DNA of 64,000 nucleotides, taken from NCBI RefSeq assembly GCF_009846885.1, contig NZ_WUWM01000007.1:124001-188000 (forward strand). The letters run 5' to 3'. Origin of the DNA: Paenibacillus puerhi. GTDB lineage: Bacteria > Bacillota > Bacilli > Paenibacillales > NBRC-103111. Of this stretch, positions 831 to 38,704 are shown in pieces. A program made the position numbers and the translations under genes. The first letter of the stretch is position 1. Each line of letters begins with the position of its first letter. Below the pieces are notes generated by a model that worked only from the letters and a program-made list of their open reading frames with translations, was not told the DNA's origin and searched no databases.

Positions 831-2198
831 TTAAAACGGCACTGCCTTTCTTTCCTCCGCCGCTCCGACGATGCTCATCCGCTCCCAGGCGCGCGTTCTC
901 CACCTCCAGTAGAACAGCGCCCCCCTCACCCATTCGTCCACGACGAATGCGATGACGACGCCGAGCAGACCCAGCTTGCCGTACACGCCCAGCATATACG
1001 CGAGCGGAAGGCAGATAAGCCACATCGAGCCGACTCCGAGATACATCGGTACCTTGGCGTCCCCGGCTGCCCGCAGCGCATTGATCAGGACGAGATTAAC
1101 CGCACGGCCCGGTTCGAGCAGGATGCCGAGCAGCAGCACCTGAACGCCCAGTGACAGGATCGATGCGTTGTCCGTGAATAGGCCAAGCAGAGGACGCGAG
1201 CCGACAGCCATCACCGTAGCCGCACCGACCGTCACGATCACGGCAATGCGCACGCTGCGCATGCCCCGCGCGTACGCTTCATCGAACCGGCCCGCCCCCA
1301 CCATCCGGCCGAGCAGAATTTCCGTGCCGATCGCCAGGGATACCGTAAACAGCATATTGAACATGCCGATGCTTTGCGCATAGATTTTGGCGGTCAATGC
1401 GTCCGCTCCCGCGATTGCAATGAACGAGGTAATCGCCATCTGGGCCAGAGTGGTGAAGAAGCTTTCTCCGGCCGTCGGAACCCCGATCCGCAGCAGCTGC
1501 TTCACGTAGGTCTTCTGTGCCGACCACCAGCCCTCGGGGACGAACCGGTGCTTTACCTTGCGGTAGAGCAGAAGGAGCAATATGCCGATCCCGATCAGAC
1601 GGGAGACGTTAGTCGATAGCGCTATTCCTTCGATGCCGAGAACCGGCAGGCCGAAGGGGCCGTACAGAAACAAATAATTGCCGAGCAGGTGCAGCAGATT
1701 CATGCCGACGGCTACATACATCGTACTCGAGGTGTAGCCGTAGCTGCGCAGGATCGTGGCGAGCGTAAGCCGGACGGCTTCCAGGAAACAAAAGCCCCCT
1801 ACCAGCTTCAAATATGTCCAAGCGGAATCCATCAGCTCGGCCGGAATCCCCATTAAGCGAAACACCTGCGCTCCCGAAGCGAGCAGCAGCACGGCAAGCA
1901 GCAGGCCAAATGCAAGGTTGAGCGCGATAGCCGTCAGCCCGATCGCGCCCGCCTCTTGATTTCGCCCGGCCCCTAAATACTGGGAGATCACCACACTAGT
2001 CCCTGCGGCCACGACCCCGAACATCAGATTCACCAGAAACAGGACCTGATTGGCCACGCCCACCGCGGCAACCGCTCCATCTGAATAGTGACTCAACATC
2101 AGCGTATCCGCATTGCCCATCAGCATTGAGAGCAGCATCTCCACAAATATGGGCCATGTGAGCGCTGCTAAGGTTAACTTTTTGCCATCTTTCAACAT
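831..2198 (-). CDS. MATE family multidrug/cation antiporter
   Basis: About 455 residues with twelve hydrophobic segments in two MatE halves. The start of the first half, LTWPIFVEMLLSMLMGNAD, is typical of Bacillota MATE exporters, which expel drugs or metabolites against a Na+ or H+ gradient. I start it at the ATG at 2198 because TTAGGAGGT lies just upstream. The same frame stays open to 2324, and an ATG at 2297 has its own weaker site (GAAGGG), which would add 33 residues running through the leader hairpin. The gene is monocistronic and has its own promoter and attenuator-like leader. The substrate is unknown. Confidence 0.9.
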   Translation of the reverse strand: MLKDGKKLTLAALTWPIFVEMLLSMLMGNADTLMLSHYSDGAVAAVGVANQVLFLVNLMFGVVAAGTSVVISQYLGAGRNQEAGAIGLTAIALNLAFGLLLAVLLLASGAQVFRLMGIPAELMDSAWTYLKLVGGFCFLEAVRLTLATILRSYGYTSSTMYVAVGMNLLHLLGNYLFLYGPFGLPVLGIEGIALSTNVSRLIGIGILLLLLYRKVKHRFVPEGWWSAQKTYVKQLLRIGVPTAGESFFTTLAQMAITSFIAIAGADALTAKIYAQSIGMFNMLFTVSLAIGTEILLGRMVGAGRFDEAYARGMRSVRIAVIVTVGAATVMAVGSRPLLGLFTDNASILSLGVQVLLLGILLEPGRAVNLVLINALRAAGDAKVPMYLGVGSMWLICLPLAYMLGVYGKLGLLGVVIAFVVDEWVRGALFYWRWRTRAWERMSIVGAAEERKAVPF

Positions 2199-2400: not shown

Positions 2401-3915
2401 TCAATTGTTTACCTTAATACTTGGCATCTCTGCCTCCTGCGCTTCCTCAGCTTCCTGCAGCAGAAGCGCCGAAGGGGAGCAAAGCCGGTTAACAAACGCT
2501 TCCAATCGGGCATTGTAGGCTTCGACGCCTGACCAATCCCTTGCTGCCGTTAATGTAAACAGGCGGCCGGCATAAGCCGTTGACGCCCCGTCCCCCTCAG
2601 CGACCGGTATGGACAGCGTGCCTGATGTATAGACCAAAACCCCTTTGCCCGTTTCCCGGTTATACAGCAATCCTTCACGCTCCATAGCCGTACACAGCCG
2701 GGCGTAGTCATGCGGCTGCCGCGTCAGCAGTTTGAAGTAACGTGCATAAAGCTTTACATCCCCCAGCACATCTCCTGCAAATGAAAGATACGTGGACAGC
2801 GTGAACCGGCCGTTGATCTCAATGACCGGAATGATCGTCCCGTCCTTCGTGATGATCGAATCAACGCCTGCCACTCCCGTATAGCCATACTCTTCATATA
2901 AATGCTTGCCGATGAGCACGCCGTATTCCCGGTAGGCGGACAAGGTGCGCTCATCCAGATCGGCGGGCATCGCCGAGCCGATATAGACCGTATCTCTCAG
3001 CACCTGCCGCTTGATGGAGAACACCTGGGCCTCCCCTTGCGGCGACACATAGAGCTGGAAGCTGATATCGGCCTGTGTCGGGTACCAGCCCTCGACCAGC
3101 CACTGCGCATCCTCTCTGCCCCTGGAGAAGCGGGCCAGGCGGCTCAGCAGAGGCGCCAGCTTCTCGGCGCTATCGACCCGGTACAAGCCTTTGCCGGACG
3201 CGCCATGCGGCTCCTTCACGATGACCATCCCGAACTGCTCCCGTTCGGTCAGCCGCTCGTACTCGTCGCGAATCTCTGCCGTGCTCAGGCATACCTTGCC
3301 CTGACTGACCGGCAGACCGAGCGCCTCTGCGATGCGGCGGTTGCCGATCTTATCGTTCACAGCGGCGTTCACGCCAGCCGGCGCACCGACAAGCGTGAGC
3401 CCGCATTCCTCGGCGATCCTCTCCTCCAGCCGGGTCACCGCGTAGGGGACGAAGTACACTCCCGCCGGACGGCGCCCGGCTTCCTCCACACCGCTGCCAT
3501 CCGCCTGGGCCGTTCTCCCTGCCCCTGCCGCCTCTGCCTCAGCTGCTGCCTCAGCCGCTGCAGCAGCCAGTTCCCGCTTCAGCCCTTCATCCTGCAGCAC
3601 CAGCTCGGAGATCGGCAGCAGCGCATCGGCGCCGCGAGGCACCAGGATGCGGCGCGGCACCTCGAAGCCCCACTCCCGCAGTTTGGCCAGATAGGCCTCA
3701 TCCGGCCGCTCGCGGACGATTAGAATATCCTGCTCCCGGCAGAGCAGGAGGTTCATCTCCTCGACTCTGGCGACGATGCGGTCTTCCGTTCGGTCGATGA
3801 CCCCGGCGTGTACCGGATGCCAATATTTCTCCGCTCCGATATTGAGCAGCCAGATCAGCACATGCTCGCGCTTGTGTGTCGTCAAGCATCGGATCAGGTC
3901 AAATTGTTCGTCCAT
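2401..3915 (-). CDS. ATP-grasp ligase, last gene of the ACP operon
   Basis: About 504 residues. The central and C-terminal part shows the ATP-grasp fold: VIVKEPHGASGKG (nucleotide-binding loop) and VIEINGRFTLST (metal-binding Glu/Asn near the end). An N-terminal region of about 150 residues resembles the pre-ATP-grasp domain, followed by an Ala/Glu-rich linker. ATP-grasp enzymes join a carboxylate to an amine or thiol through an acyl phosphate. In the butirosin pathway BtrJ of this superfamily loads an amino acid onto an acyl carrier protein, and an ACP gene is in this operon. I chose the ATG at 3915 because GGGGAGTGG precedes it; this overlaps the kinase gene by 17 bp. The substrate is unknown. 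Confidence 0.75.
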   Translation of the reverse strand: MDEQFDLIRCLTTHKREHVLIWLLNIGAEKYWHPVHAGVIDRTEDRIVARVEEMNLLLCREQDILIVRERPDEAYLAKLREWGFEVPRRILVPRGADALLPISELVLQDEGLKRELAAAAAEAAAEAEAAGAGRTAQADGSGVEEAGRRPAGVYFVPYAVTRLEERIAEECGLTLVGAPAGVNAAVNDKIGNRRIAEALGLPVSQGKVCLSTAEIRDEYERLTEREQFGMVIVKEPHGASGKGLYRVDSAEKLAPLLSRLARFSRGREDAQWLVEGWYPTQADISFQLYVSPQGEAQVFSIKRQVLRDTVYIGSAMPADLDERTLSAYREYGVLIGKHLYEEYGYTGVAGVDSIITKDGTIIPVIEINGRFTLSTYLSFAGDVLGDVKLYARYFKLLTRQPHDYARLCTAMEREGLLYNRETGKGVLVYTSGTLSIPVAEGDGASTAYAGRLFTLTAARDWSGVEAYNARLEAFVNRLCSPSALLLQEAEEAQEAEMPSIKVNN

Positions 3916-4642
3916 TTGCACTTCCACTCCCCTTATTTGCCTTCGCCGCAAGATGTCCAAACAGGGGGCTCTCCGCCCCCAGCCGTTCCTTCACATACCG
4001 TTCCACCCGGACTTCGGCGGGATCATCGCCGGAGATATCCGCTCCGGTTGTGACGACCTCGACCTCCACAAACGTGCCGCCGTTCGGGGTCAAGCCGCCG
4101 AACAGGCAAATATAGGCCTCCCGCATCCTTCGCAGGTAAGTCAGATCGTCGCCCTTCAGCCGTTTATTCGGGTGGAACAGCCGCTTGCCCCGGACTCTGA
4201 TCCGGTCGTAGCACAGCTCGGGCGGCGTGTCCAGGAAGATGACCCGGTCCGGAGGGCGGACGAGCCGCGCAAGCTTGCTTCCAAGCCGGGTGCCCGCACC
4301 GTTCGTCGCGTCGCGGGTGAGCGCCGTATGCACGTACCTGTCCGCGATGACGATACGCCCCTTTCTCAGCGAGGGTGCTATGATCAGGGCATAGTCGAGA
4401 AGGAAGCCGAGCCACTGCAGCAGGCTGTAGACGCGAGGGACAAGCAGTCCCGCGCGGTTCAGCCCCGCTGCCAGCATGCGGATTGCCCGGTTGGCATTCC
4501 ATTCGACCAGGACCGCTTCAAAGCCTGCGGCCTCCAGACGGGCCAGCAGCCGCTTCATGCTTTCGCTTTTGCCCGAGCCGCTGATTCCTTCATAAGCTAC
4601 CAGCACTCCCTTTACCCGGCTACCAGCCGCGCCGCTCTTCAT
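3899..4642 (-). CDS. dTMP-kinase-like P-loop kinase
   Basis: About 247 residues. The P-loop is EGISGSGKSE, and IVIADRYVHTAL matches the DR(Y/W) motif of the thymidylate kinase family. A lid-like basic stretch follows around residues 180-200. The operon context makes a housekeeping Tmk unlikely; such relatives in biosynthetic clusters probably phosphorylate a small molecule or act in self-protection. The start at 4642 has no clear ribosome site. It begins 15 bp after the nucleotidyltransferase stop and ends inside the ATP-grasp start, so translation is probably coupled. Confidence 0.72.
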   Translation of the reverse strand: MKSGAAGSRVKGVLVAYEGISGSGKSESMKRLLARLEAAGFEAVLVEWNANRAIRMLAAGLNRAGLLVPRVYSLLQWLGFLLDYALIIAPSLRKGRIVIADRYVHTALTRDATNGAGTRLGSKLARLVRPPDRVIFLDTPPELCYDRIRVRGKRLFHPNKRLKGDDLTYLRRMREAYICLFGGLTPNGGTFVEVEVVTTGADISGDDPAEVRVERYVKERLGAESPLFGHLAAKANKGSGSANGRTI

Positions 4643-4657
4643 GGCACAGCCGGGCGG

Positions 4658-5779
4658 TCAGATCGTTTCCAGGCTGGGCAGACGCTCCAGACTCCGGTAA
4701 CGCTTGAGATCAAAGAAGCGGGTGAGCAGGTCTTCCTTCCAGGTATAGACGATAGAGGAATCCGCACCGTCAATGACCTGTTCCAGATAGTCCGTATTCG
4801 CAGGGCGGATGCGCTCCAGCGCTGAGGCGAAGGCCTCGATATCGCCCAGTACCGGAAAGAACGTCCGGGCGTATTCCAGCGCGTAGTAGCATTCCTCCAC
4901 AATGTTGTTGGCGCGGATGATCTCTTCGAATCTTACCCAGTCGATCTCCAGCTGCGGGTCGGTAAGAAAGCCGTAAATATCGACGAACTTATACAGTCCG
5001 AGGTCGCGCTGCCACTCGACCCAAGTAATAACTCGGGCCTCCTTGTACAGATGAACGCACAAGTGGGCAAGGAAGTATTCCTTCGGCAGCGAGCTGACCC
5101 GCTGGCCCTCCGAAAACAAGTACGTCTCCGACTCCCGGATGAAATTATCGACCGCCTGCTCGGTGCCATGCGGCATCCAATCCAGCGAGAAGTTGATATC
5201 GATCTCGATCAGATTGATCCCGGGCTCATCGACAACCTTGCGGAACGGTACGACCTCGCCGTAGTTCATCCGGTAGTTTACCAGTTCGCGGCGTGTAGCC
5301 GGAACGACCACGTTCTCATTCTCGTCATGGAAGCCCTGGACAAAGCCAAGCTCCCGGAACACGTCTCCGCAAGCCGTCAGATCCCCGGCATTCAGCAAAA
5401 TATCGATGTCGCTGGAGATGCGGCAGCCAGCCGGATACGTCGAGTTGGCCAGGATGGAGCCTTTGAGAAACGCATGAGGGATTCCGCTGTCATTCATCGC
5501 TTCGGCGATGCGGGCAACCGCATGCTTGTGCGAATTGGTGCGCAAGGCCTGAATCTGATGAATCAGGTATAGCGCCATTTCGAATTCGCGGTTAAAGAAC
5601 GGGGCGCTGATCTTGCGCAGCACATGGTAGGCGATGCCCGCCGTCCGGTTATACGTCATATGCCCGAGCACTTCCGACAGATCCAGCTTCTGGCCGAGCA
5701 GCTCCAGAATCTTCTCCTTGTTCGGGGTTCTGTATTGGGCCAGCTCCAGGACCAGCTGCTGTTCCGGGGTAATCGTCAT
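4658..5779 (-). CDS. Uncharacterised nucleotidyltransferase (NTP_transf_5 type)
   Basis: About 373 residues. HAFLKGSILANSTYP and RISSDIDILLNAGDL (residues ~100-135) form the active-site pattern of the NTP_transf_5 family: a Lys-Gly, then Asp-x-Asp to bind metal. The C-terminal half is helical with aromatic residues, as in that family. Members often occur in peptide, polysaccharide or lantibiotic clusters. They are thought to transfer a nucleotide to a sugar, lipid or protein, but activities are mostly unproven. It follows the surface nucleotidase by 41 bp. Its target here is unknown. Confidence 0.72.
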   Translation of the reverse strand: MTITPEQQLVLELAQYRTPNKEKILELLGQKLDLSEVLGHMTYNRTAGIAYHVLRKISAPFFNREFEMALYLIHQIQALRTNSHKHAVARIAEAMNDSGIPHAFLKGSILANSTYPAGCRISSDIDILLNAGDLTACGDVFRELGFVQGFHDENENVVVPATRRELVNYRMNYGEVVPFRKVVDEPGINLIEIDINFSLDWMPHGTEQAVDNFIRESETYLFSEGQRVSSLPKEYFLAHLCVHLYKEARVITWVEWQRDLGLYKFVDIYGFLTDPQLEIDWVRFEEIIRANNIVEECYYALEYARTFFPVLGDIEAFASALERIRPANTDYLEQVIDGADSSIVYTWKEDLLTRFFDLKRYRSLERLPSLETI

Positions 5780-5820
5780 CTCGCATTCCTCCAGTTAATT
5801 GAAATGTAGACTAACAAGCA

Positions 5821-7407
5821 TTATTGATAACGCTGGTTGATGATCTTGATCCGCTCTTCCTCCAGCTCCTCGGGCAGCTTGCCTCCCTGGCTCTTCAGGT
5901 AAGCGGCGACCTCTTGACTAAGCAGGCCTCCCCGCTGCACGACCTTGGCGTCCTTGAACACGTCATGATCGTCGCCGCCAGCTATCAAGAAGTCGGTGAT
6001 CGCAACCTTGTACATGGCGTTCTTATCCAGCGGCTGCCCGTTTCGGGTGACACTGGAGAGCCGCTTGCCTGCGGGCTTTGAACCGTCGATCTCGTAGGTG
6101 ATGCCCGATACCTGCAGGAAGCCGCCGTTGCTCGCTCCGCTCGGCCAGTTGATCATCCCGTGCTCCAGCGCCTTGTAGATCGCTTCGCCCTTCAGCTCGA
6201 CCGTGACCAGATTGTTAACGAAGGGAAGCACGTTGTCGAGCTTATACAGCGTCACATCGCCGCCCGGAATGCTCTCTCGGATCCCCCCGCTGTTGTACAG
6301 CGTAAGGTCCGCATTTCCCCGCACCCTCATCGCATCGGCGACCAGATTGCCGAGGTTGGTCGATTTGGTCCGCACATGCGAGCGGATGCCGTCCAGGCCC
6401 GACTCCGAGGTGGCCACGACCTCCTTGCCGTTCTCCAGTGCCATCGCGTGATAACGCCCCACGATCTCGGCGATCTTCGGGTCCTCCTTCTTCCGGTCCA
6501 GCGTCTTCCGGACGCCCCAGGCGACCTTGGCCACCTTGCCCTGCCGGAAATACAGATCGGCGACTCCGACATGCGTAGAATAGCCGCCGGACTCCACGAC
6601 CGGGACGCCGCTGGCGATAAGCGGTTTCTCGTACAGAAAATGGCCGTGCGCGCTGAGGATCAGGTCGATGCCGCTAACATTCGCCGCGATCAGATGGCGG
6701 TCCAGATCGTCGCCCAGATGGGACAGCAGTATGATCGAGTCCACCTGCTGCTCCCGCAGCTCGGCTACAGCCTTCTGGGCCGCAGGCAGCGGGTCTTCGT
6801 AACGGACATCGCCGATGCCGTGCACCTGAAGATCCTGGAGGAACTGGGCCGTCGTCAGCCCGAATACGCCGATCCGCTTGCCGCCAACCTCGAAAATCCG
6901 GTAAGCCTCGAAGACCGGTTGGCCGCCCTTCGTAATATTGGCGCTCAGAATCGGGAAGTTGAGCTTGTCCTTAAGCTCCATCGTACGCTCCCAGCCCCAG
7001 TCGAACTCATGGTTGCCGGCCGTCAGCGCATCGTAGCCCATCAGATTGGCGATCTCAAGGATCCCTTCCCCCTCATTCACCGCCGCCTCCGGCGTACCAT
7101 GGAACATATCGCCGCCATCCAGCATCAGCGTATGGGGGTTGTCCTTGCGGATCTCATCGGCGATTCCCTTGATCAGAGCCATCCCCATTTCGGGATGCTG
7201 ATCCGTCCCCGGCAGAAGCCCGCCGGTATCATACTCCTTGAACGTAATATGACCGTGCAGATCCGCCGTATTGATGATCGTAATTCGCTTTTCGTAATAG
7301 CCCGCCGCCAGCAGCATGCGGTTGAAATCGACCTGGGTCGCCACCGCATAAACAGCCGCCCCCAGCAGCAGAACGCCCAGCACAAGTAACGTGGTGTACT
7401 TTTTCAA
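5821..7407 (-). CDS. Membrane-anchored 5'-nucleotidase / metallophosphatase
   Basis: About 528 residues. One N-terminal hydrophobic segment (residues 5-23, no lipobox) is a signal peptide or anchor that places the enzyme outside the cell. The calcineurin-like domain shows TADLHGH, GGDMFHGTP, GNHEFDWG, LSHLGDD and SAHGHF, the full two-metal set. From about residue 330 comes the 5'-nucleotidase C-terminal substrate domain (NLVADAMR, YNSGGIRESI). The family (UshA/YfkN type) removes phosphate from nucleotides or splits cyclic and sugar nucleotides. Inside the operon it could trim an exported phosphorylated or nucleotidylated product, which is inference; general phosphate scavenging is the alternative. 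Confidence 0.88.
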   Translation of the reverse strand: MKKYTTLLVLGVLLLGAAVYAVATQVDFNRMLLAAGYYEKRITIINTADLHGHITFKEYDTGGLLPGTDQHPEMGMALIKGIADEIRKDNPHTLMLDGGDMFHGTPEAAVNEGEGILEIANLMGYDALTAGNHEFDWGWERTMELKDKLNFPILSANITKGGQPVFEAYRIFEVGGKRIGVFGLTTAQFLQDLQVHGIGDVRYEDPLPAAQKAVAELREQQVDSIILLSHLGDDLDRHLIAANVSGIDLILSAHGHFLYEKPLIASGVPVVESGGYSTHVGVADLYFRQGKVAKVAWGVRKTLDRKKEDPKIAEIVGRYHAMALENGKEVVATSESGLDGIRSHVRTKSTNLGNLVADAMRVRGNADLTLYNSGGIRESIPGGDVTLYKLDNVLPFVNNLVTVELKGEAIYKALEHGMINWPSGASNGGFLQVSGITYEIDGSKPAGKRLSSVTRNGQPLDKNAMYKVAITDFLIAGGDDHDVFKDAKVVQRGGLLSQEVAAYLKSQGGKLPEELEEERIKIINQRYQ

Positions 7408-7434
7408 AGCAAGTTCCTCTCTCCTGATTCGGTA

Positions 7435-8265
7435 TTAATACATAGAGTTGCCTGAGCTCGTATAGCTCCGCACGCCCCGCTTCCACAGCCGGTACACCAG
7501 CAGAAACATCGCCAGCCCGACAAGCGGGGTCACATACAAGTATCCGCCCCCGTACAGCTGCAGATCATCCTTCCGTAGGAAAAACTGCGCCGGAAAATAA
7601 CTGACGAACGAAAAGGGCACGAGAAAGATCAGCATCTTCTGAATGAGCCCCGGATAAAAGCTGATCGGGTAACCGGCAATTCGTCGTGCATTGAAGAAAA
7701 TCAGATTGCGCAGATTTTCCGTCTTGATCGTCCAGAAGCTGAAGCAGGCCGACAGCATGAAGATCGAAGCTTGAATCATCGCTCCTCCGATTAGCGCTGT
7801 CACATAATAGAAAATGTTGACCGCATCCCAGACGATGCCCACCGAGAACGCCGTCTTCATGAACAGAATCACGCCTACGACGCCATGGCCAAGCGTGGCC
7901 GGCAGATCGATCTTCGAAGCGACTGTTTGGAACAAGAGACCCAGCGGACGGATCAGGAACCGGTCGAACTCCCCGGAATGCACCATCCCGTCAAAGTCGC
8001 GGACGCCGGCAAACAAAAACACGAAAAGACTGTAGGATAAAAACAGGAAGCTGTACAGGAAGAACAGCTCATTCATCTCCCAGCCTCGAATGTGCAGAAA
8101 CCGGGCCAAGATCAACAGCATCACGATGACGCTGATCATCTCCCGGCAGAAGATGGCGAAGGCGAGGAACGAGCGGTCCAGCTTATATTCCAGCGTCGTT
8201 TTCAGGTTCAGCTTCGCGTAGCGAAGGAACAGCCCGGCCAGCTCGGCCGTCGAATATCCTCCCAC
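7435..8265 (-). CDS. ABC-2 type exporter permease, second subunit
   Basis: About 276 residues with six membrane segments, of the ABC2_membrane_6 type that occurs in pairs beside one ATPase. I start it at the GTG at 8265, which has AGGAGG nine bases upstream; the longer open frame to 8355 has no such site. It begins 5 bp after its partner permease and lies directly ahead of the 5'-nucleotidase. It should form a heteromeric exporter with the genes at 8271 and 9034. The cargo is unknown but probably is the operon product. Confidence 0.82.
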   Translation of the reverse strand: MGGYSTAELAGLFLRYAKLNLKTTLEYKLDRSFLAFAIFCREMISVIVMLLILARFLHIRGWEMNELFFLYSFLFLSYSLFVFLFAGVRDFDGMVHSGEFDRFLIRPLGLLFQTVASKIDLPATLGHGVVGVILFMKTAFSVGIVWDAVNIFYYVTALIGGAMIQASIFMLSACFSFWTIKTENLRNLIFFNARRIAGYPISFYPGLIQKMLIFLVPFSFVSYFPAQFFLRKDDLQLYGGGYLYVTPLVGLAMFLLVYRLWKRGVRSYTSSGNSMY

Positions 8266-8270
8266 AATTG

Positions 8271-9059
8271 TCAGCCTCCTTGTACGACCAGTCTTTTTTG
8301 GGCCAGCGTCCACAGCAGCTGCCCCGCTCCGAACAGTACGGCCACCCATATGCATTGGCGCAGCATGCTCATGAGGATCTGATCCTCCGGCACCATGCCC
8401 AGATAGATGCGGATAGGGATATAGAAGATCGAATCGAAAGGCGTCATCTCGATAAATCGTACGAGCTGCGGGGGCATAAGCCAGATCGGCACCAGAGCGC
8501 CCGAGAAGATCATGACCGCCGCATCCTTAATCGTGACAAGACTGAAGGTCCAGTAAAACCAGAATGAACTGACCCAGACGATAAAGTTCAGATTGTACAG
8601 CACGAGAAAGCCAAGCGCCGCACTGAGCATAAAATAAGCCAGCATCATCCCGGAGAACGGGGGCAGCAGCTTGAATACGACAATCGAGACCACCAGCACA
8701 GGCGCAAATTGCATGACGACCCGGAACGCTACCGAGCCCAGATTGTAGAAAAACACATAGAGCCTGAAGTTGATCGGCTTTAGCAAGTCCGACGATATAA
8801 GCCCGCTGCGAATCTTCGCTTCGATGAAATATTCATCCATGACATAGACGAGCTGAAGGAGAAACGACAGCACCACGTACGTGACGAGAATTTTGAACTG
8901 AACGCCCTCCAGCATATCCCCTTCCTCGTAGATCGCCCGCCAGATTGCAATATTGACGAAGATCATCACGATCGCATTGAGCACGCCCGCGAGAAAATCA
9001 ACCCGGTACACGATGCTGTTCTGAAACGACTTCTTAGCAAACTCCAGGTAAACTCTCAT
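8271..9059 (-). CDS. ABC-2 type exporter permease, first subunit
   Basis: About 262 residues, six membrane segments, related in layout to the permease at 7435. The N-terminus YLEFAKKSFQNSIVYRVDF is the amphipathic stretch common in this family. The ATG at 9059 lies inside the 3' end of the ATPase gene (26-bp overlap), so production is probably coupled to it. It is one half of the membrane channel of the operon's exporter. Confidence 0.83.
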   Translation of the reverse strand: MRVYLEFAKKSFQNSIVYRVDFLAGVLNAIVMIFVNIAIWRAIYEEGDMLEGVQFKILVTYVVLSFLLQLVYVMDEYFIEAKIRSGLISSDLLKPINFRLYVFFYNLGSVAFRVVMQFAPVLVVSIVVFKLLPPFSGMMLAYFMLSAALGFLVLYNLNFIVWVSSFWFYWTFSLVTIKDAAVMIFSGALVPIWLMPPQLVRFIEMTPFDSIFYIPIRIYLGMVPEDQILMSMLRQCIWVAVLFGAGQLLWTLAQKRLVVQGG

Positions 9060-10044
9060 CGAGGCTGATACCCCCTTGGTAAATTTCCCGGATGATGCCG
9101 TCGATATCGGGCTCCTGTACCGTGAAGTCGAGTAGCGGATACTTCTGCATCAGAATTTGCAGGATAGCGGACGCCTGGATCTCGTCCCGGGAAAACCGGA
9201 ACCGCTTCTTCGTCCCCTTGTCCTCGATCAGCTCGACGCCGGGGATGAACACATGACCGACAGGCTCGGCAAATTCAACGGCTAGCGTCCGGTCCTTGCC
9301 ATATTGGTCCTTAATCTCCTCTACCGTACCGTCATAAATCTTATGTCCCTTGTCGATAATGATCATCCGCTCGCAGGTCTTCTCGATATCGACCATATCA
9401 TGCGTGGTGAACAGCATCGTCGTTCCCTTCTCCTTATTCATCTGCCGGATGAAGGCCCGGATGTTCTCCTTGGCGACCACATCCAGACCGATCGTCGGCT
9501 CATCGAAGAAAATGATCTCGGGGTCGTGCAGCATAGCGGCGGCAATATCCGCCCGCATCTTCTGCCCGAGGCTGAGCTGCCTGACCGGCTGCCGGATGAA
9601 CTCCTGAAGGCCTAGCAGCTCGCTGAACAGCTCCATATTGCGCTTATAGCGCTGCTCGGGTATCCGGTACACATACCGCAGCAGATCGAAGGTATCGGCC
9701 ACAGGCAAATCCCACCACAGCTGCGTCCGCTGGCCGAAGACGACGCCGATCCGCTGAGCGTTCAGCTTGCGGTCCTTATGCGGAGAGAGCCCCCCGATCG
9801 AGATCGAGCCCGACGTGGGCACGAGAATGCCCGTCAGCATCTTGACCGTCGTGGATTTGCCTGCCCCGTTCGGTCCGATGAATCCGACCGTCTCGCCCTG
9901 CGCGATCGAGAAGTCGATCGAATCGACGGCCCGCTTCTTGACGTACTCCGGCATCAGCAAACTGCTGATGGAGCCCAGCAAGCCTTTCTTTCTGACGCTG
10001 ATCTCATATTCCTTGACCAGTTCCTTGACTTCGATAAATGCCAC
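9034..10044 (-). CDS. ABC exporter ATPase
   Basis: About 336 residues. Walker A GPNGAGKST, Q-loop region VFGQRTQLWW, signature LSLGQKMR, Walker B IIFFDEPT and the switch His in TTHD are all present, so it should be active. The first 45 residues carry a family-specific insertion, and about 90 residues after the core form a regulatory tail, as in drug-type ABC-2 ATPases. It is followed with overlaps by two permease genes and lies 13 bp after the ACP gene, which ties the exporter to the ACP-dependent genes. Confidence 0.92.
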   Translation of the reverse strand: MAFIEVKELVKEYEISVRKKGLLGSISSLLMPEYVKKRAVDSIDFSIAQGETVGFIGPNGAGKSTTVKMLTGILVPTSGSISIGGLSPHKDRKLNAQRIGVVFGQRTQLWWDLPVADTFDLLRYVYRIPEQRYKRNMELFSELLGLQEFIRQPVRQLSLGQKMRADIAAAMLHDPEIIFFDEPTIGLDVVAKENIRAFIRQMNKEKGTTMLFTTHDMVDIEKTCERMIIIDKGHKIYDGTVEEIKDQYGKDRTLAVEFAEPVGHVFIPGVELIEDKGTKKRFRFSRDEIQASAILQILMQKYPLLDFTVQEPDIDGIIREIYQGGISLDESLPGVC

Positions 10045-10056
10045 TTCCAGCCCCTC

Positions 10057-10317
10057 CTAGATCGGCTGCTGCAGGCCGAGCTTCTGTCCGATGATCGAGC
10101 TTAATTTGCCAATCGTATTCAGGTTGTCCAGCAGCAGCTCCTCATCGCCAAATACGACGTCGAACTGTTCTTCCAGACTGAGTACAATATCGACGCAGTT
10201 GATCGAATCCATCCCCTCGGCAGTCAGCGAATGCTCATCAGACAAGCTCTCCTGGCGCTCATCCCCGAGCTTTAAGGTATCCGCTACGATTCTCTTTACT
10301 TGCAGGCAAATCTCCAT
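10057..10317 (-). CDS. Acyl carrier protein (dedicated, small)
   Basis: About 86 residues, an acidic helical protein. EGMDSINCVDIV carries the Asp-Ser pair that receives phosphopantetheine on Ser, before helix II. This is not the fatty-acid AcpP: the motif context differs and no fab genes are near. I choose the ATG at 10317 because GGGAGAG lies nine bases upstream. The other candidate, 10326, overlaps the CYTH stop and leaves almost no spacing. It should hold the intermediate made by the ATP-grasp ligase and flavoprotein. No phosphopantetheinyl transferase gene lies in the window. Confidence 0.85.
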   Translation of the reverse strand: MEICLQVKRIVADTLKLGDERQESLSDEHSLTAEGMDSINCVDIVLSLEEQFDVVFGDEELLLDNLNTIGKLSSIIGQKLGLQQPI

Positions 10318-10322
10318 CCTGA

Positions 10323-10913
10323 TCATCTCTCCCTCATAAGCTGCCGGTACTGCCGGAAGAATCTGGTGTTTTTGCCGTCTGACGTCGAGTCTCCCGCTTC
10401 GCTATCCGGCAGCAGCCGTTTGTACATGCGAAAGGCCTCCTCGGCCTCTCCCTCCTCGAACTCGATCTCAAGCTCATAATCCGTGATGCCTAAATAGCTG
10501 CTCCGGTCTAGCTCCACCCGGGTTCCCCCGGATATGCGGAAGCTCGACCGTTCCGTAATCAGAGGTAGGGTAAGATGCGCCTCCCCCCGGATGCCGAGCT
10601 CGGGGAATTCCCGCTCCAGCTCGAAGCGGAGCGGCAGCGCATCGACTGGCCGGCTCAGCTCTTGCTTGATCCGGTAACCGGCCGATTCCCCGGCGCCCCG
10701 GGCGGGATACTTCACCTCCAGCGTAAGCGCCGCTTCTTTCTGCCTGACCCGGACGGTAATCCCGTGCTCATGCAGCCCCTGATCATCCGTTTCGTAGTAA
10801 TAATTGATCTGAAGCTGATGACGGACGGGAAAAGGGAGCAGCTCCGGATGCGACAGCAGCCGGGCGTAATCCTCCTTGGTCAGCAATCGTTTGATCTCGC
10901 GTTCCAGCGTCAT
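10323..10913 (-). CDS. CYTH-domain protein (triphosphate tunnel type)
   Basis: About 196 residues. The N-terminus EREIK is the ExExK signature. Charged strands follow (VRVRQKEAALTLEVKYP, YELEIEFEEGE) that would line the eight-stranded tunnel. The family binds triphosphates with metal: inorganic triphosphatases, thiamine triphosphatase, class IV adenylate cyclase. It is embedded between the flavoprotein and ACP genes (4-bp gap and 6-bp gap to the preferred ACP start). A CYTH enzyme between these is unusual. It might remove the triphosphate side-product or supply a cyclic or phosphorylated ligand, but that is a guess. Confidence 0.82.
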   Translation of the reverse strand: MTLEREIKRLLTKEDYARLLSHPELLPFPVRHQLQINYYYETDDQGLHEHGITVRVRQKEAALTLEVKYPARGAGESAGYRIKQELSRPVDALPLRFELEREFPELGIRGEAHLTLPLITERSSFRISGGTRVELDRSSYLGITDYELEIEFEEGEAEEAFRMYKRLLPDSEAGDSTSDGKNTRFFRQYRQLMRER

Positions 10914-10917
10914 CGCT

Positions 10918-12114
10918 TCAACACCATCTATTCTTGACCGATACGACGCCGAGCGTTTTCTTGGCCAGCAGCTCTTTCAGCAGGTCATCTCCCGGCTGAT
11001 GATAGGTCGCCGCTCTCACGTCCCGGTAGAGCCGCTCCAGCAGCTCGCCTTCGTTCAAGGCGCTCATTCCATCGAGCTGCATCGCCTGCCAGACGATCTC
11101 ATTGGCCATATGGGTCACGTAATATTTCGTAATGAGCGACTGCTGAAACAAGTCATCCGTGAATCTGCCCTGCTCACGCTCCCGGTCGGCCCTTCTAGCG
11201 AACATCCGGAGCTGATTCGCAGCCGTTTCCAGCTTGATGCGCATCTCCGCCAGCGTGAATTGGGAGCCCGGCATGAAAGCGAGCGGCGTCTGCGAGTACA
11301 TATCCCGTTTCTTGCCGAGCACAGACACCACATGATCGAAGGCCGCTTGTGCGATGCCCTGGTAGACCGAGGAGATGGCCAGCCTCGACCAGTGGGACAG
11401 CTCGTTCGTATCCTCGATGGCATGTCCCTCCCGGCCGATCAGCCTATCCTCCGGAATGAAAACCTCATCCAGGGTGACATGATGACTCTTCGTTCCCTTC
11501 ATCGCCGTAGAACGCCATGCCTCGTCGATCGTAACGCCCGAATCGTCCCGCGTGACCATCAATGCCGTCATGCCGAGCCTCGTCCCCGTATCCTCCTGGT
11601 AGCCGTATATAGGGAGATACTTGAACCGTTCGCAGCCGGAGACGAACGCCTTCCGTCCGTTCACGATATAACCGCCGTTCGTTCGCCGGACCTCGATCTT
11701 GACCATGTCCTTCGGCGCTACCCGGGCCGTCAGAAGCATGACATTCGGCTGGTTGAACGACGACATGTACTCGCCATTGTGCTGGATATCCCGGAATACG
11801 CCGGCCAGCATGGCATTGTCTGTCATGGTCCCGAGTCCCGCCAGCGTATAATAGTGCATAGCTAGACATAGTGCCGTAGATCCGCAGCCCGCTGCCAGCT
11901 CCGAGATCAACTCGAACGTGTTCTCGAAGCCGATGCTATGGCCCCCGTAGGCTTCCCCCAGCGTAAGCGTATGGAGCCCCTTCTGAGCCAGCTCTGTAAA
12001 ATTTTCATGAGGAAACCGGGATGTCGCGTCGGCGTGAGCCGCACGGCCCGCCATAGCCAGTTTCATTTCACCCGCGATTTCCCGCCACTCTTGGACAGCC
12101 GTCAATCCGCTCAT
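10918..12114 (-). CDS. Acyl-CoA dehydrogenase-like flavoprotein
   Basis: About 398 residues with the usual layout: N-terminal helices (LGEAYGGH), the beta domain, then a C-terminal helical bundle with RDVRAATYHQPGDDL. At the position where most members carry the catalytic Glu (YEGT motif) this protein has HQP. The alternative Glu site of isovaleryl-CoA dehydrogenase also reads W-S-R. It may therefore be an FAD/FMN oxidase, hydroxylase or a dehydrogenase with another base. It likely acts on an ACP-bound thioester, given the ACP gene nearby. The gene starts in a 4-bp ATGA overlap with the upstream gene. Confidence 0.85.
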   Translation of the reverse strand: MSGLTAVQEWREIAGEMKLAMAGRAAHADATSRFPHENFTELAQKGLHTLTLGEAYGGHSIGFENTFELISELAAGCGSTALCLAMHYYTLAGLGTMTDNAMLAGVFRDIQHNGEYMSSFNQPNVMLLTARVAPKDMVKIEVRRTNGGYIVNGRKAFVSGCERFKYLPIYGYQEDTGTRLGMTALMVTRDDSGVTIDEAWRSTAMKGTKSHHVTLDEVFIPEDRLIGREGHAIEDTNELSHWSRLAISSVYQGIAQAAFDHVVSVLGKKRDMYSQTPLAFMPGSQFTLAEMRIKLETAANQLRMFARRADREREQGRFTDDLFQQSLITKYYVTHMANEIVWQAMQLDGMSALNEGELLERLYRDVRAATYHQPGDDLLKELLAKKTLGVVSVKNRWC

Positions 12115-13166
12115 CCGGCCACCCCTCTCTCCGCCGCCGTGTCACCGGACAGATTCGGCCGCAGCCGAATCGACCCCAGCAGCTCGTCATACAGCTGCCG
12201 CTCTTCTTCCCGCATCCGCTCTACCGTTCCAACGATCGAAGTCAGATGCTCGGGCTTGCGCGAGCGAGAGAACTTAATGAAGCTGTTGCGGGCCGCCTCC
12301 GCCGTCTTCTCAAGCTGCGCGAATCTGCCTTCCAGACCCCTAGAGGTATCGATAAATCCCCGCTCCGTCATGTATGCGACCCGTAAGGCCATCAGATGCT
12401 TATGCTCCCAAAGCATGTGCATATAGCGCATATCCACCCACGGGTTCTTATTGGCGCTCTGCGCTTCGATAAACTGCCGCAGGATCGAGTAGGAATCAAG
12501 CCCGAAGATCAGATCGTCTTCCGGCTCGGCGAGCAGCTGGTATTTCAGTGCCGTATTGCGCGAGTACAGATAGTCCTCCAGACTTTCCGCAACAAGATCG
12601 ATATTGAACGCATAGCTGGCCCGTTCATTGAGCCGGTACAGGAAAATCTGCCGGCACGGATTAGGAAACGTATCCAGACTGGCATAGGCCTGCTCAAATT
12701 CGGTGAAGCTGATCGTCGAGCTCCCGAACATCAGCCTTTCATTGTACCCGAGCAGGTCGAAGACGCCCTGTTCCTCGTCGAAGCCGTACACAAGCACGTC
12801 ATGCGAATAATTGCGCACGCCATAATGCATGCGGCTGGGGACATGATACTCATTCAGATTGAGGTATACCGAGTAGCCTTGGCCGATGCAGTCCTTGACG
12901 AAATCTACGATTCCTCTGCGGAAGAGGGGGAACAGGTCCCTGTCCATGCGCTGCACCGAGAGCAACGGATTGCAGGCATAATCGTACTCGTAGAAGCCGA
13001 AAGGGACGGGCGCCGTTGCGAAACGCTCATGAATACTGACCTGGATGTAATTGCTGAAGATCCAGCCCCAACTTCGCTCATCCGTCCCGATGACAGCGAG
13101 CGGATACGCCGAGAACTGCCAGCACTTCACAGGCGGTATGCTGATGGGCAATTGTATTTTCGTCAC
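12111..13166 (-). CDS. Papain-like (C39 / BtrH_N-type) protein, first gene of the ACP operon
   Basis: About 351 residues; GTG start at 13166 with a G-rich site (AAGGGGGG) upstream. The first 190 residues look like the papain-like module of natural-product clusters: Cys in PVKCWQFSA, then a Tyr-rich strand and NYSHDVLVYGFDEEQGVFDLL with the His and Asp of a Cys-His-Asp triad. BtrH, which has this fold, transfers an acyl group from an ACP to an aminoglycoside. The remaining 150 residues are charged helices without a clear family. It leads an eleven-gene run on the minus strand. Acyl transfer is the favoured idea; a protease role cannot be excluded. Confidence 0.6.
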   Translation of the reverse strand: MTKIQLPISIPPVKCWQFSAYPLAVIGTDERSWGWIFSNYIQVSIHERFATAPVPFGFYEYDYACNPLLSVQRMDRDLFPLFRRGIVDFVKDCIGQGYSVYLNLNEYHVPSRMHYGVRNYSHDVLVYGFDEEQGVFDLLGYNERLMFGSSTISFTEFEQAYASLDTFPNPCRQIFLYRLNERASYAFNIDLVAESLEDYLYSRNTALKYQLLAEPEDDLIFGLDSYSILRQFIEAQSANKNPWVDMRYMHMLWEHKHLMALRVAYMTERGFIDTSRGLEGRFAQLEKTAEAARNSFIKFSRSRKPEHLTSIVGTVERMREEERQLYDELLGSIRLRPNLSGDTAAERGVAG

Positions 13167-13414: not shown

Positions 13415-14062
13415 TCATGCCAGCCCGTTGCGAATGGCAAACACCACGAGTTGGATGCGGTCGCGAAGGTCAAGCTTTCTAAGAATGCCGGATACCGTAT
13501 TTTTAATCGTCCCCTCCGACATGAAAAGACTGCGCGCAATCTCGCGATTTTCCATGCCCTCCACAATATGCCTGATGATGCTGACCTCCCGATCGGTTAG
13601 CCCGGGATCAGGCGAGATCTGACGCTCATAGGCGGCAGCCAGGCTGATGCCCGCCTGCTCCGTGAAGCTGTGCATGGCCTGCTTATCCATAATGCTTAGC
13701 CCCGCCGCCACACTTTTGACCGTCAGCACCAGCTCTGGAGGATGGATGTCCTTCAGAATATATCCGCTCGCCCCGCTTTGGATCGCTTGCAGCATGCAGC
13801 CCGCATCCGTGCAACTGGTGAAGATGATGACTTTCGTGCTCGGATGCTTGCTGCGGACCTGCCTGACGACCTCTATGCCACCTTCCTTCAGGACGAACGC
13901 GTCTACCAGCGCAATGCAAGGCTGCAATCGGTCGCACAGCTCGATCAGCTCCTGCGAGGTCGCCGCGTACCCGGCTACCTCAATCTCCCCCTCCCGCTCC
14001 AGGATAAGCTTGATTCCCTCATTGACGATCCGGTGAGCATCTGCTACAACAACTTTGATCAT
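13415..14062 (-). CDS. NarL/LuxR-type response regulator
   Basis: About 215 residues: receiver domain (1-120), linker, LuxR helix-turn-helix near 150-210 (TDREVSIIRHIVEGMENREIA, SEGTIKNTVS). The phospho-acceptor Asp in ALVDAF and the Lys in ILKD are present. The N-terminal acidic pair is only half kept (ADAH instead of DDH), so metal binding and phosphorylation may be altered. GGAGGAGCT precedes the ATG. No partner histidine kinase gene lies beside it; a chemoreceptor gene is upstream. It is separated from the ACP operon by terminators and could control it, which is untested. Confidence 0.9.
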   Translation of the reverse strand: MIKVVVADAHRIVNEGIKLILEREGEIEVAGYAATSQELIELCDRLQPCIALVDAFVLKEGGIEVVRQVRSKHPSTKVIIFTSCTDAGCMLQAIQSGASGYILKDIHPPELVLTVKSVAAGLSIMDKQAMHSFTEQAGISLAAAYERQISPDPGLTDREVSIIRHIVEGMENREIARSLFMSEGTIKNTVSGILRKLDLRDRIQLVVFAIRNGLA

Positions 14063-14097: not shown

Positions 14098-16158
14098 TCA
14101 GGTGCGAAATGTAACGAGTGAAAGCTTCAATTGCTCGGATAATTCCTCCAATCTTGACGACAGCCCCACAAGTCTTTCACTAACAGCCAACTGACTTGCC
14201 GATAAGGAGGCCACCTCCTCCGTCGAAGCCGTCGTTTCCTCGACGACCGAGCTTACGCAGCCCATCGCTTCGGACAGCTTGTGCTGGGATAATACCAATT
14301 GCTCGACAGAAGCGGAGGATGCCCTAAGCTGCTCCATATACCGGGTCGTTTCCTCCATAACCTGGCCGAAGATGGCCGCCGCTTCCTTTACCGCGTTCCG
14401 CTGATCCTCGAACATCGGGTTGGCCGTCAACAGGAATTGGACGGTTTCTTCCATCTCTTGCCGGATGGTCTCCGTGATGCCGGACACAACCTGTATGGAG
14501 TTCTTCGACTGGTCCGCCAGCTTGCGGATTTCTTCGGCGACGACCATGAACCCCTTGCCGGCAGCACCTGCGCGTGCAGCCTCAATGGTCGCGTTCAACG
14601 ATAATATATTGGTTTGCTTAGTCAGGTTGTTCAAGACATCGAGAATTTTCCGCATGGATGAAGCGCTCGCCTTAAGCCGGTCGACCTTGTCGACGATCGT
14701 ATGGGTCAGCCTGGCGTTCTCATCCGTTTTCTCGACCAATACGTTCATGCAAGCAGTCCCCTGAACGCTGACCTGCTGCACACGGCCGGAAGCTTCTCCC
14801 ATCCGGTCATTGGAGAGGGCGACCTCCGTCGTCGTCAGGCCGATCCGCTCGGTCAGCAGGGTGCCCTTCTCAGCTACCGCTGCCGTACTGCTGGCCCCAT
14901 GGGCGATCTCTCCTGTCGCCGCCGCAATCTCCCGCGCAGACAATGCGGTGTTCTTGGAAACCTCAGAGAGCTCGGCTGCCGTACGCAGCACCTCTTGAGC
15001 CGAACGATTCGTTTGCTCGACAAGCGTCCGGATTTGCTGCATCATGCGGTTGAAGCTCTGGCCGAGCCGTCCGATCTCGTCCTGTGAACGGAAGTCGGTG
15101 CGCACCGTCAGATTGCCGCGCTCCCCTTCTTCCATCAGCTTGCACAGCAACGTTAGCGGCCTGCCTACAAGCCTTACAACCAGATAGCCGAGGGCAGCGG
15201 CCAGTACGATCGCCAACAGCGTCATGGCCACTGTGATCGTTAGCAGCTTGTCCGTATCCTGAACGAACTCGCTTACAGGGGTACGGCCGGCCAGCTGCCA
15301 CTTGGCCGTCTGCAGCCGCTTGTGGACAACGAGCCGTTCTACGCCGTCCTCCTCTCGGGCATGGAAGGCCCCTTCCTCCTGTTCGCCTGCCTCGCCCAGA
15401 ATGTTCGATACCTGCTCCAGCGCTGCCGGCTCCGCCGTATATGCTACCTTCCCATCGTTCGTCACAAGCCATATTTCCCCCGTTTGCCCCAGTCTGACAT
15501 TCGATAAGATCTCGGTAAGCGCCTGGCTCTTGATCTCCAGGGTGAGGATGAATTCAGCCTCCGGACGTTGAGCATTTTTGAGCAGCCTCCCCATCGTCAG
15601 GGTAGGCTCGGTATTCAGCGTGTACAGCCCCTTCTTCTGAACTGGCAGCCAGCGAATATCCCCGTCCGCCTCCATGATCGCTTTCAGCGCTCCCGCGTTA
15701 GCTTCGTTGATCATAATCGAGCTGCTTCCGGACGTCCGGTACGTCTTCGCGATGTCCAGCGTCCTTGGAATGAGCATGACGCGCAGCAGCCTCTTGTCCG
15801 AGCTGACGATCGCATCCAGCTTCCGGCGGATCCGGTTCTCCGCCTGGTTTTTAAGACCATAGTCCGCATCCGGCTTGCTCACCAGCTGCAGGTCCTCCCT
15901 CAGCTCCTGATCGATAAGCAGCTGTCTGGACAACGATTCGTATTGGGCAAATAAAAAATCGAGCTTGTCTGCCGCCTGTACAATCGTTTGCGATGACGCA
16001 CCGGCCACCTGGTCAATGATCAGTCCTTTGGCCACTGTATATGAGACCCAGCCGAGCGCGGCCGTGAGACCGGCCGTTGTGACGAACAGCAGAAGAAACA
16101 GCTTTCCTCCTACGGATTGAAGCGGGCTTTGCAGCCGAGCTTTGAAGTTTGCGTTCAA
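14098..16158 (-). CDS. Methyl-accepting chemotaxis protein
   Basis: About 686 residues. A membrane segment near residues 15-40, an extracellular Cache-like sensor of about 270 residues, a second membrane segment, HAMP, and a long cytoplasmic four-helix region with the conserved hairpin ([20 protein letters not shown]). It senses an unknown small molecule and signals to CheA/CheW. I start it at the TTG at 16158, preceded eight bases upstream by AGGAGG; the open frame to 16233 runs through the terminator of the upstream amylase gene and is not credible. Confidence 0.92.
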
Positions 16159-16195
16159 CGAGATGGCCTCCTGTTTTGTAGTTTCTGTGTTGAAC

Positions 16196-16233
16196 AAAAA
16201 GCACAATCTCGGGCCGATGACTTGAGATTGCAC
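16196..16233 (-). terminator. Rho-independent terminator after the amylase gene
   Basis: 10-bp stem (16224-16233 with 16201-16210) that pairs fully only as minus-strand RNA (two G-U pairs), then five T. It ends the maltodextrin operon ahead of the chemoreceptor. Confidence 0.75.
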
Positions 16234-16290: not shown

Positions 16291-17943
16291 TTATTGCAAA
16301 ACGACCGAGCTGTAGGCCGGAATCGACAGTATTCCCGCTTCGATCCTTGTGGAACCCTCCGTAGACAGCAGAATCCGTCCGAACCTTTCGGGCTCTCGCT
16401 TGCGTACATCCAGCTCCAGCGGCTTGCTTGTCAGATTGTGTACGACGAGCACTTCCCGTTCGGCCGTTCTCCGAATGAAAGCAGACAGGCCCGGATCCTC
16501 AGCAGCGAAAGGGGCGATGTCTCCATCCCTCAGCGCCGGCTCGCGCTTGCGCCAGTCGATCAGCTGCTTATAGCGGTTTAGAAGGGAGTTCGGGTCTTTC
16601 AGCTGCGCCTCCACCGAAGGCGCGTCAGCCCCGCTATTGGAACGTGCCGGCTTCCAGGTCGTCTGCCCTTCACCCTTGCCGGCGGCATGCCACAGCATAG
16701 GCTCGCGCTTGTTTTCATCCGCTCCGCTGCCCTTCATGCCGATCTCATCCCCGTAATAGAGGAACGGATGACCGGGCAGTGTCAGCAGCAGCGCCGCAGC
16801 CATGCGGGCATGCTCCCCGCTGCCCCGCAGCACACTCATTAGACGGTCTGCATCGTGATTGCCGATAAAAGAAGCATCGACAAACCGACCGCCGGATTCC
16901 TTCCGGAATATCTCATACTGACGGCTAAGCATCGCTCCGAGATCGGGTGCTTTCTCAGCATGAACGGCGCTTCGCAGGGTGGTGTTCAGCGTAAAGTTAA
17001 AGGCCGACTGGAAAGCCTGATTCAGGTAAGGAGCGATCACGGCTTCACTATCCCATACCTCCCCGACGAGAAAGACATCGGGATCCGCTTCATTCAGTCC
17101 GCGCCGGAACTCCTGCCACCAGTTCTGGTTGCTTGCTGCCGTCTCCTTGCTGCCTTTGGACGACTGAAAGTCCTCGTAAACATGCTTTGCCGCATCAAGC
17201 CGGAACCCGTCCGCGCCCTGCTTCAGCCAGAAGTTTCCGACCCGGATCATCTCCTCGCGTACAGCCGGATTGTCGAAGTTCAAGTCCGGCATCCCCTCCC
17301 AGAACGTGCCCACATAACGAGCGCCCCCGCTCAGATGCCAGGCGTTACCGCTGCCTGTCGCGCTAAGCACATGCGCATTCCGGTTCGGGTCCTCCGACCA
17401 GTTGTACCAGCTGCGGTACTTGCTGTCCGGACCCGAGGACGAGTCGATAAACCAAGGATGGCTGGAGCTGGTGTGATTGACGACCAGATCAAGAATCAGC
17501 TGGATTCCCCGCTTGCGCGCCTCCGCCGATAAGTATCGGAAGTCCTCCAGCGTACCGAGCTCCGGGCTTACGTCATAGTAATCCGTAACGTCATACCCGT
17601 GATAGCTCGACGACGGGTGAATGGGGGTTAGCCATAGCCCCTCGATGCCGAGCTCCTGCAAGTAATCGAGTTTGGCTGCGACCCCCTGCAAGTCCCCGAT
17701 CCCGTCGCCATTGGAATCATAGAAGGAACGGACAAAAATTTCATAGAATACCCTCGAAGGCTGTTCGTAGACCGGGGGCTTTTCTTTCGTCTCTTGCAAA
17801 GAAGCGAAGGGCAGGTAGGTTTCTACAGCTGTCGAGGGCATATCCTGTACCTCGGAGGGCGCGGAATCGCTGCAGCCTGAGGATGAGGAGAGCACAAGCG
17901 CTGCAGCGAGCAGCAGCGCGGCTGGGCGACGAGATGCACTCAT
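16291..17943 (-). CDS. Exported alpha-amylase-family lipoprotein (GH13)
   Basis: About 550 residues. A signal peptide with lipobox (SSSGC, Cys at ~24) anchors it outside. GH13 regions are complete: LDLVVNH, GFRLDAAKH (nucleophile Asp), VGEVWD (acid Glu) and IGNHDADR (Asp). DGIGDLQGV and the C-terminal sandwich suit oligosaccharide-active alpha-amylases. Its start overlaps the MalG-type stop by 4 bp (ATGA), so it is the last gene of the uptake operon and supplies maltodextrins for it at the cell surface. Confidence 0.93.
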   Translation of the reverse strand: MSASRRPAALLLAAALVLSSSSGCSDSAPSEVQDMPSTAVETYLPFASLQETKEKPPVYEQPSRVFYEIFVRSFYDSNGDGIGDLQGVAAKLDYLQELGIEGLWLTPIHPSSSYHGYDVTDYYDVSPELGTLEDFRYLSAEARKRGIQLILDLVVNHTSSSHPWFIDSSSGPDSKYRSWYNWSEDPNRNAHVLSATGSGNAWHLSGGARYVGTFWEGMPDLNFDNPAVREEMIRVGNFWLKQGADGFRLDAAKHVYEDFQSSKGSKETAASNQNWWQEFRRGLNEADPDVFLVGEVWDSEAVIAPYLNQAFQSAFNFTLNTTLRSAVHAEKAPDLGAMLSRQYEIFRKESGGRFVDASFIGNHDADRLMSVLRGSGEHARMAAALLLTLPGHPFLYYGDEIGMKGSGADENKREPMLWHAAGKGEGQTTWKPARSNSGADAPSVEAQLKDPNSLLNRYKQLIDWRKREPALRDGDIAPFAAEDPGLSAFIRRTAEREVLVVHNLTSKPLELDVRKREPERFGRILLSTEGSTRIEAGILSIPAYSSVVLQ

Positions 17944-38282: not shown

Positions 38283-38385
38283 GACAGACTTAGGCCGACC
38301 GATAGGCGCATCCTTCCCGCCGCTTCGCCGGTCGTCGTCTTGCCGCTGCCGCTCCTTTATCCTCGAAAGGAATCAGCTGTGACGG

Positions 38386-38590: not shown

Positions 38591-38704
38591 CGGATGGTCC
38601 GGGGCCGCTTGCTCATAACTTCTTCTTCTACCAACTGGCTTACAGTTTCTCACGCTTTCAGCTAAATGGTCAAGCGCGCAGGCTTCCCTATCGCCGCCTT
38701 ATCG

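Follow-up and report, generated by a model that had tools for sequence, protein, structure and literature searches.

A conserved, apparently undescribed carrier-protein operon with nucleotide-handling enzymes in Paenibacillus puerhi

The window analysed here is a stretch of 64,000 nucleotides from Paenibacillus puerhi (contig NZ_WUWM01000007.1, positions 124,001 to 188,000; contig 67 of the genome designated G000). Its minus strand carries, from 13166 down to 2401, eleven tightly packed open reading frames, all open throughout, with intergenic gaps of -85 to +41 bp when the longest starts are taken. They encode a BtrH-type papain-like protein (BtrH1), a flavoprotein with the fold of acyl-CoA dehydrogenases (ACAD), a CYTH-domain protein, an acyl carrier protein (ACP), an ATP-binding cassette (ABC) exporter with two ABC-2 permeases, a 5'-nucleotidase, an NTP_transf_5 enzyme, a P-loop kinase and an ATP-grasp ligase (Table 1). 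An earlier note, made from the letters alone, had described this arrangement correctly, and Pfam agrees with the domains it named, including Thymidylate_kin; only BtrH_N stays below its cut-off. By gene content the operon fits the looser kind of non-canonical thiotemplated assembly, with a carrier protein, a stand-alone loader candidate and a papain-like transferase without condensation domains. Condensation matches number 58 genome-wide, so the genome is rich in non-ribosomal peptide synthetases (NRPS); none lies on the window's contig, in line with the note's statement that NRPS core genes are absent from the site. The operon is a slimmed member of a real and conserved biosynthetic family that, within the searches made, is apparently undescribed. 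Searches of the open part of the literature gave no paper that was recognised as describing the cluster.

To assess conservation, NTP_transf_5 and ATP-grasp, two of the operon's products, were searched against 392 genomes of the order. A match to the NTP_transf_5 protein was present in 44 genomes (E up to 1e-10) and a close match in 11, namely G000 and ten relatives at 67-97% identity to it (the sister species G081, and G106, G114, G051, G036, G014, G019, G124, G037 and G050). All 11 contain the ABC ATPase, both permeases, the nucleotidase, NTP_transf_5, the kinase and the ATP-grasp protein, together with an ACP of the window's type, although the nucleotidase and ATP-grasp genes are in pieces in G050. 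The exporter ATPase is 71-95% identical in the ten relatives. Recurrence of these eight core genes in 11 of 392 genomes is beyond chance, and they form a conserved unit. The expected co-inheritance of a dedicated ACP, an ATP-grasp ligase, a BtrH-type protein, an exporter and three nucleotide-handling enzymes was thus found, and the genes are not scattered in relatives, except in two genomes where the set is divided between two sites: kinase and ATP-grasp share a cluster with the NTP_transf_5 gene in nine of the 11 and occupy a second locus in G106 and G114. A scan of named genomes returned eight loci, all among the 11, from Paenibacillus species, Chengkuizengella axinellae, an uncultured Paenibacillaceae bacterium and a Bacilli metagenome-assembled genome. 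The ATP-grasp protein is more widespread, with matches (E up to 1e-10, at most three candidates scored per genome) in 153 of the 392, many at low identity. Other components are more variable. The ACAD-fold gene occurs in four of the 11 clusters (G000, G081, G106, G114), and the CYTH gene in five (G000, G019, G014, G106, G114); it is absent from the operon of G081, and in G051 it lies at another site, next to a broken ACAD gene.

Table 1. Features at the operon and in the adjoining block (window coordinates).
Feature	Coordinates	Strand	Remarks
Methyl-accepting chemotaxis protein	14098..16233	-	MCPsignal, HAMP; in interposed block, also interposed in G081
LuxR/NarL-type response regulator	13415..14062	-	Response_reg + GerE; probable cluster regulator, beyond the earlier note's coordinates
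BtrH1, BtrH-type papain-like protein	12111..13166	-	predicted carrier-protein-dependent amide transferase; Cys15, His122
Acyl-CoA-dehydrogenase-fold flavoprotein	10918..12114	-	Pfam ACAD domains; possibly flavin monooxygenase-like
CYTH-domain protein	10323..10913	-	PF01928; possible triphosphate-handling enzyme; optional component
Acyl carrier protein, ACP1 type	10057..10326	-	PP-binding 37.1 bits; GMDS motif
ABC exporter ATPase	9034..10044	-	ABC_tran, DrrA1-3_C
ABC-2 permease 1	8271..9059	-	ABC2_membrane_6
ABC-2 permease 2	7435..8265	-	ABC2_membrane_6; ribosome-binding site before 8265
5'-nucleotidase/UshA-type phosphohydrolase	5821..7407	-	Metallophos + 5_nucleotid_C
NTP_transf_5 nucleotidyltransferase-fold enzyme	4658..5779	-	GS and DxD motif
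dTMP-kinase-like P-loop kinase	3899..4642	-	Thymidylate_kin
PGM1-type ATP-grasp ligase, proposed ACP loader	2401..3915	-	PreAtp-grasp, ATP-grasp, PGM1_C
MATE exporter	831..2198	-	MatE; in interposed block, probably own transcript; also adjoins operon in G081

Most relatives carry more than the window does. Nine of the 11 genomes, all except G000 and G081, encode in addition a pyridoxal phosphate (PLP)-dependent decarboxylase and have both another ACP and another BtrH-type protein; the second ACP adjoins an AMP-binding enzyme in seven of the nine (fragmented in G050) and an aminoacyl-tRNA synthetase-like enzyme in two. The G036 decarboxylase, the only one compared with the PDB, scored 348 bits with BtrK and no more than 170 bits with diaminopimelate decarboxylases. 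Two clusters, G036 (assigned by Pfam) and G014, add a luciferase-type, BtrO-like monooxygenase. This gene content supports, at the sequence level, a carrier-protein logic of the butirosin or closthioamide type. When seven core proteins were concatenated and a tree was built, with the clusters of G205 and G003 as outgroup, G000 and G081 joined G106 and G114 (support 100; some nodes elsewhere reach only 64-68). Because both outgroups and all nine other clusters carry the decarboxylase and the second BtrH-type protein, the form in the window, common only to the sister among the 11, is most simply read as a slimmed derivative of a larger cluster. The operon as first noted thus looks reduced, and a regulator probably has to be added to it (below). 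In five of the 11 main clusters a protein of ~900 residues (L086:8185-10878 and relatives), with only sub-threshold esterase/hydrolase matches, is encoded between kinase and decarboxylase.

Reduction could also mean decay, with the decarboxylase, second ACP, its loader and second transferase lost and no product made. The window and G081 are nested in a set where every other cluster carries the decarboxylase together with a second BtrH-type protein, which would fit this, as would a broken second cluster copy in G036 (L113). We nevertheless regard a remnant as improbable, since the ten operon genes common to G000 and G081 are open in both species, with ratios of nonsynonymous to synonymous substitution rates (dN/dS) of 0.02-0.32, the kinase (0.32) and ATP-grasp gene (0.205) being least constrained, and since Cys and His of BtrH1 are kept in both. 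The L113 copy (contig 1, 3498000-3517999, same genome as L023) has its NTP_transf_5, AMP-binding, permease 2 and ATP-grasp genes in pieces.

The operon ACP is a stand-alone protein with its phosphopantetheine Ser in the GMDS motif. BtrH1 scores 19.2 bits against a BtrH_N cut-off of 29.7, but its predicted fold is that of CcbD and CtaG, transferases forming amides from carrier-bound acyl groups. CcbD is the best structural match, at ~14% sequence identity. Structure prediction thus supports the family proposed for the 12111 protein. The label of the neighbouring flavoprotein needs correction. At the two known catalytic Glu sites of acyl-CoA dehydrogenases, all 41 family members have Gln, Pro or Ser (YEG-Glu position) and Ser, Phe or Tyr (other position), which speaks against a true acyl-CoA dehydrogenase. 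His372, close by, is invariant. Since Glu is missing at either site, the protein may be a flavin monooxygenase-like enzyme; agreement with ACAD-fold group D flavin monooxygenases is limited to the missing Glu and the invariant His, and no reductase partner is present among the operon genes. A BtrH1 homologue (P0130) and an ACAD-fold homologue (P0169) each originate from a 488,841-base contig of Bacillus cereus, possibly a single shared contig.

Among the nucleotide-handling proteins, NTP_transf_5 has a GS...DxD motif and a predicted nucleotidyltransferase fold. The kinase reaches 57.9 bits against the dTMP kinase equivalog cut-off of 83.25, a score that does not support a housekeeping dTMP kinase. 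The nearest NCBIfam models of the nucleotidase are nucleotidases including UshA, every one below cut-off; its N-terminus is hydrophobic, and the protein is probably membrane-anchored outside the cell.

The ATP-grasp ligase may take the place of BtrJ, and ACP loading is proposed for it; its gene adjoins the decarboxylase in eight of the nine relatives possessing one, and is one gene apart in the ninth. Its PGM1_C and PreAtp-grasp domains, and the name 'peptide ligase PGM1-related' given to some relatives, would also suit a peptide ligase like that of pheganomycin (PGM1), which would couple a nonproteinogenic starter with a ribosomal peptide and leave the ACP a secondary part. We consider this very unlikely: ATP-grasp relatives adjoin PLP decarboxylases (the tested one nearest BtrK) and ACPs in many loci. 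No precursor-peptide gene was noticed, though none was searched for.

What was observed is which genes are present, how they are conserved and inherited together, and which motifs and predicted folds their products have; from this we infer the reactions, substrate, acceptor and masking of the following pathway. The ATP-grasp enzyme would load the ACP with an amino acid; as the operon is without a decarboxylase, this may be an omega-amino acid, for instance beta-alanine or gamma-aminobutyric acid. The carrier-bound amino acid would be oxidised by the ACAD-fold flavoprotein, and BtrH1 would take the acyl group on its Cys and hand it to an acceptor amine, as CcbD does. Kinase and nucleotidyltransferase would phosphorylate and cap the product (or the acceptor), the ABC-2 exporter would carry the capped product out, and the membrane-anchored 5'-nucleotidase would strip the cap outside. 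That the operon makes a secreted small compound in this manner, by carrier-protein chemistry without NRPS modules, seems to us an even call. The bolder view is tentative and rather doubtful: a new class of carrier-protein-built secreted metabolites in Paenibacillales-type bacteria, masked by a cytosolic kinase and nucleotidyltransferase and unmasked by a surface nucleotidase, with the decarboxylase and second carrier module lost in the window's lineage and an ACAD-fold monooxygenase replacing BtrO oxidation. Useful antibiotics come from carrier-protein pathways that dispense with classical NRPS condensation, among them those of butirosin, closthioamide and the lincosamides; a family that includes nucleotide-handling enzymes and has natural fuller and reduced forms offers stepwise tests of ACP, ATP-grasp, BtrH-type and tailoring combinations, and may reveal a masked-export strategy for a new compound class.

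Several observations weigh against the proposed pathway. The BtrH1-family Cys is gone in three of six cluster copies, all in f4 genomes, one of these also being without His, and in four of 11 database homologues, with one more of the 11 lacking that region; catalysis is therefore not universal in the family. The f4 loci concerned (L094, L095, L123) have second BtrH-type proteins that retain Cys, His and Asp. Fold matches of NTP_transf_5 are middling, with a structure model weak in places. The nucleotidase gene is fragmented in G036 and G050, so that it may be dispensable or sequencing errors may be involved. Genes making the acceptor were not recognised beside the operon. Moreover, the kinase and nucleotidyltransferase may serve to activate the acceptor and not to mask the product: they would build a nucleotide-activated sugar or alcohol, comparable to the GDP-octose of lincosamides, which the BtrH-type protein would acylate, and the 5'-nucleotidase would do no more than recover nucleotides or shield the producer. 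UshA-type enzymes act on nucleotides and UDP-sugars, and such enzymes are among the nearest models of the nucleotidase. CcbD, the nearest structure to BtrH1, acylates an amino sugar made via a GDP-sugar, according to a lincosamide review (PMC12945683). On the other side, no glycosyltransferase, epimerase or sugar-modifying enzyme is present among the eleven genes, and a nucleotidase gene in 11/11 genomes (two in pieces) is more than salvage would seem to require. We judge the activated acceptor unlikely, if still worth serious consideration.

Comparison with butirosin (BtrI, BtrJ, BtrK, BtrO, BtrH, BtrG) also tempers the capped-product pathway. The roles of these genes, BtrG included, are those of the butirosin side-chain scheme. 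Shared are the stand-alone ACP, ATP-grasp ligase and BtrH-type protein; fuller relatives add the decarboxylase and, in two cases, the monooxygenase. Pfam scans of the eleven proteins gave no BtrK-type decarboxylase, no Bac_luciferase (BtrO-type) match, and no match to BtrG gamma-glutamyl cyclotransferase or aminoglycoside-core families, and no aminoglycoside genes were noticed nearby. Elsewhere in G081 only a 30% decarboxylase match occurs; G000 has one of 56% in a contig 14 cluster and two others of 30-31%. The operon in turn adds exporter, kinase, nucleotidyltransferase, nucleotidase and ACAD-fold enzyme. Because BtrK, BtrO and BtrG counterparts are missing, the claim of the 'same set' as butirosin was too strong, and with several defining features lacking we do not file the operon under that pathway.

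Closthioamide (CtaD, CtaE, CtaF, CtaG, CtaH, CtaI) resembles it in NRPS-independent carrier-protein assembly, ATP-grasp loader and papain-like transferase, and in the fuller relatives the presence of two carrier proteins with two loaders, plus a decarboxylase, matches Cta. Unlike Cta, the eleven genes include no CtaC-type sulfur enzyme or CtaJ-type transglutaminase and add nucleotide enzymes and an ABC-2 exporter. Lincosamide CcbD/LmbD have the fold predicted for BtrH1 and the carrier-dependent amide formation via a catalytic Cys that is proposed for it, but sequence identity is low and the loader proposed here is an ATP-grasp enzyme. In pseudomycoidin a kinase (PsmK) is followed by a nucleotidyltransferase-like enzyme (PsmN) working on the phosphate; the product is a ribosomal lasso peptide, and the likeness is one of enzyme order, without implying that PsmN is of PF14907 or that PsmK has the fold of the operon's kinase. 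These comparisons draw on PMC6772006 (closthioamide), PMC10318531 (papain-like proteins), PMC9266682 (lasso peptides), PMC2922099 and PMC11405602.

Related loci were seen outside the 11 clusters. The contig 14 locus of G000 (L105, 79000-98999) is a further carrier-protein cluster, whose ATP-grasp protein shares 49% identity with the window's and whose decarboxylase shares 56% with the G036 enzyme; it also has two ACP-like genes and, by eye only, BtrH-like, radical S-adenosylmethionine (SAM)-like and sugar-nucleotide genes. In a related family, f10 (L088, L089, L091, L098, L099, L106, L109, L111), an ATP-grasp protein of ~44-56% identity is joined by another ATP-grasp protein, by a PLP decarboxylase and by genes for an ABC-2 exporter. 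L088, the f10 locus scanned with Pfam, additionally encodes a radical SAM/SPASM enzyme and a protein whose BtrH_N match is below threshold. A protein family of ~380 residues, with the motif C/S-SGFGLG close to the N-terminus, occurs in L088 (3181-4329, no Pfam match), L085, L090 and, by eye, L105.

Gene starts and borders could be refined. Stronger ribosome-binding sites favour starts at 8265 (was 8355) for permease 2 and 3915 (was 3960) for the ATP-grasp protein, and with these the larger overlaps vanish. The MATE gene begins 202 bp past the operon (if its start is 2198), with a promoter-like match (11/12) at 2394-2366; the operon therefore probably ends at 2401. Upstream on the same strand follow the LuxR-type response regulator and then the chemotaxis receptor. 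The regulator (13415-14062) probably belongs to the operon's unit: the window's own gene or a relative of at least 140 bits stands beside eight of the 11 clusters (in G124 near the far end, on the opposite strand), and none was seen beside those of G051, G037 and G050. In G000 versus G081, dN/dS is 0.04-0.14 for MATE, LuxR, receptor and two sugar-locus genes.

In G000 and G081 the block MATE-operon-LuxR-receptor sits between an amylase-family gene (neopullulanase-like, named by eye) and a sugar ABC permease gene (maltose-type, judged from neighbours). The two genes adjoin uninterrupted in G082, G077 and G085, of the same genus and without an NTP_transf_5 match at E up to 1e-10; in G079, the fourth genome inspected, the permeases are absent as well. 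These four were chosen from 15 others, of 25 in the genus, with the amylase gene at E up to 1e-100. In G036, too, a relative of the amylase gene is found close to the cluster. An alpha-amylase gene at 16291-17943, between receptor and sugar permease in G000, is missing at that place in G081. Farther along the window, a cobalamin riboswitch lies at 38374-38592 on the minus strand, with, by eye, an ABC transporter and cobalamin synthesis genes alongside.

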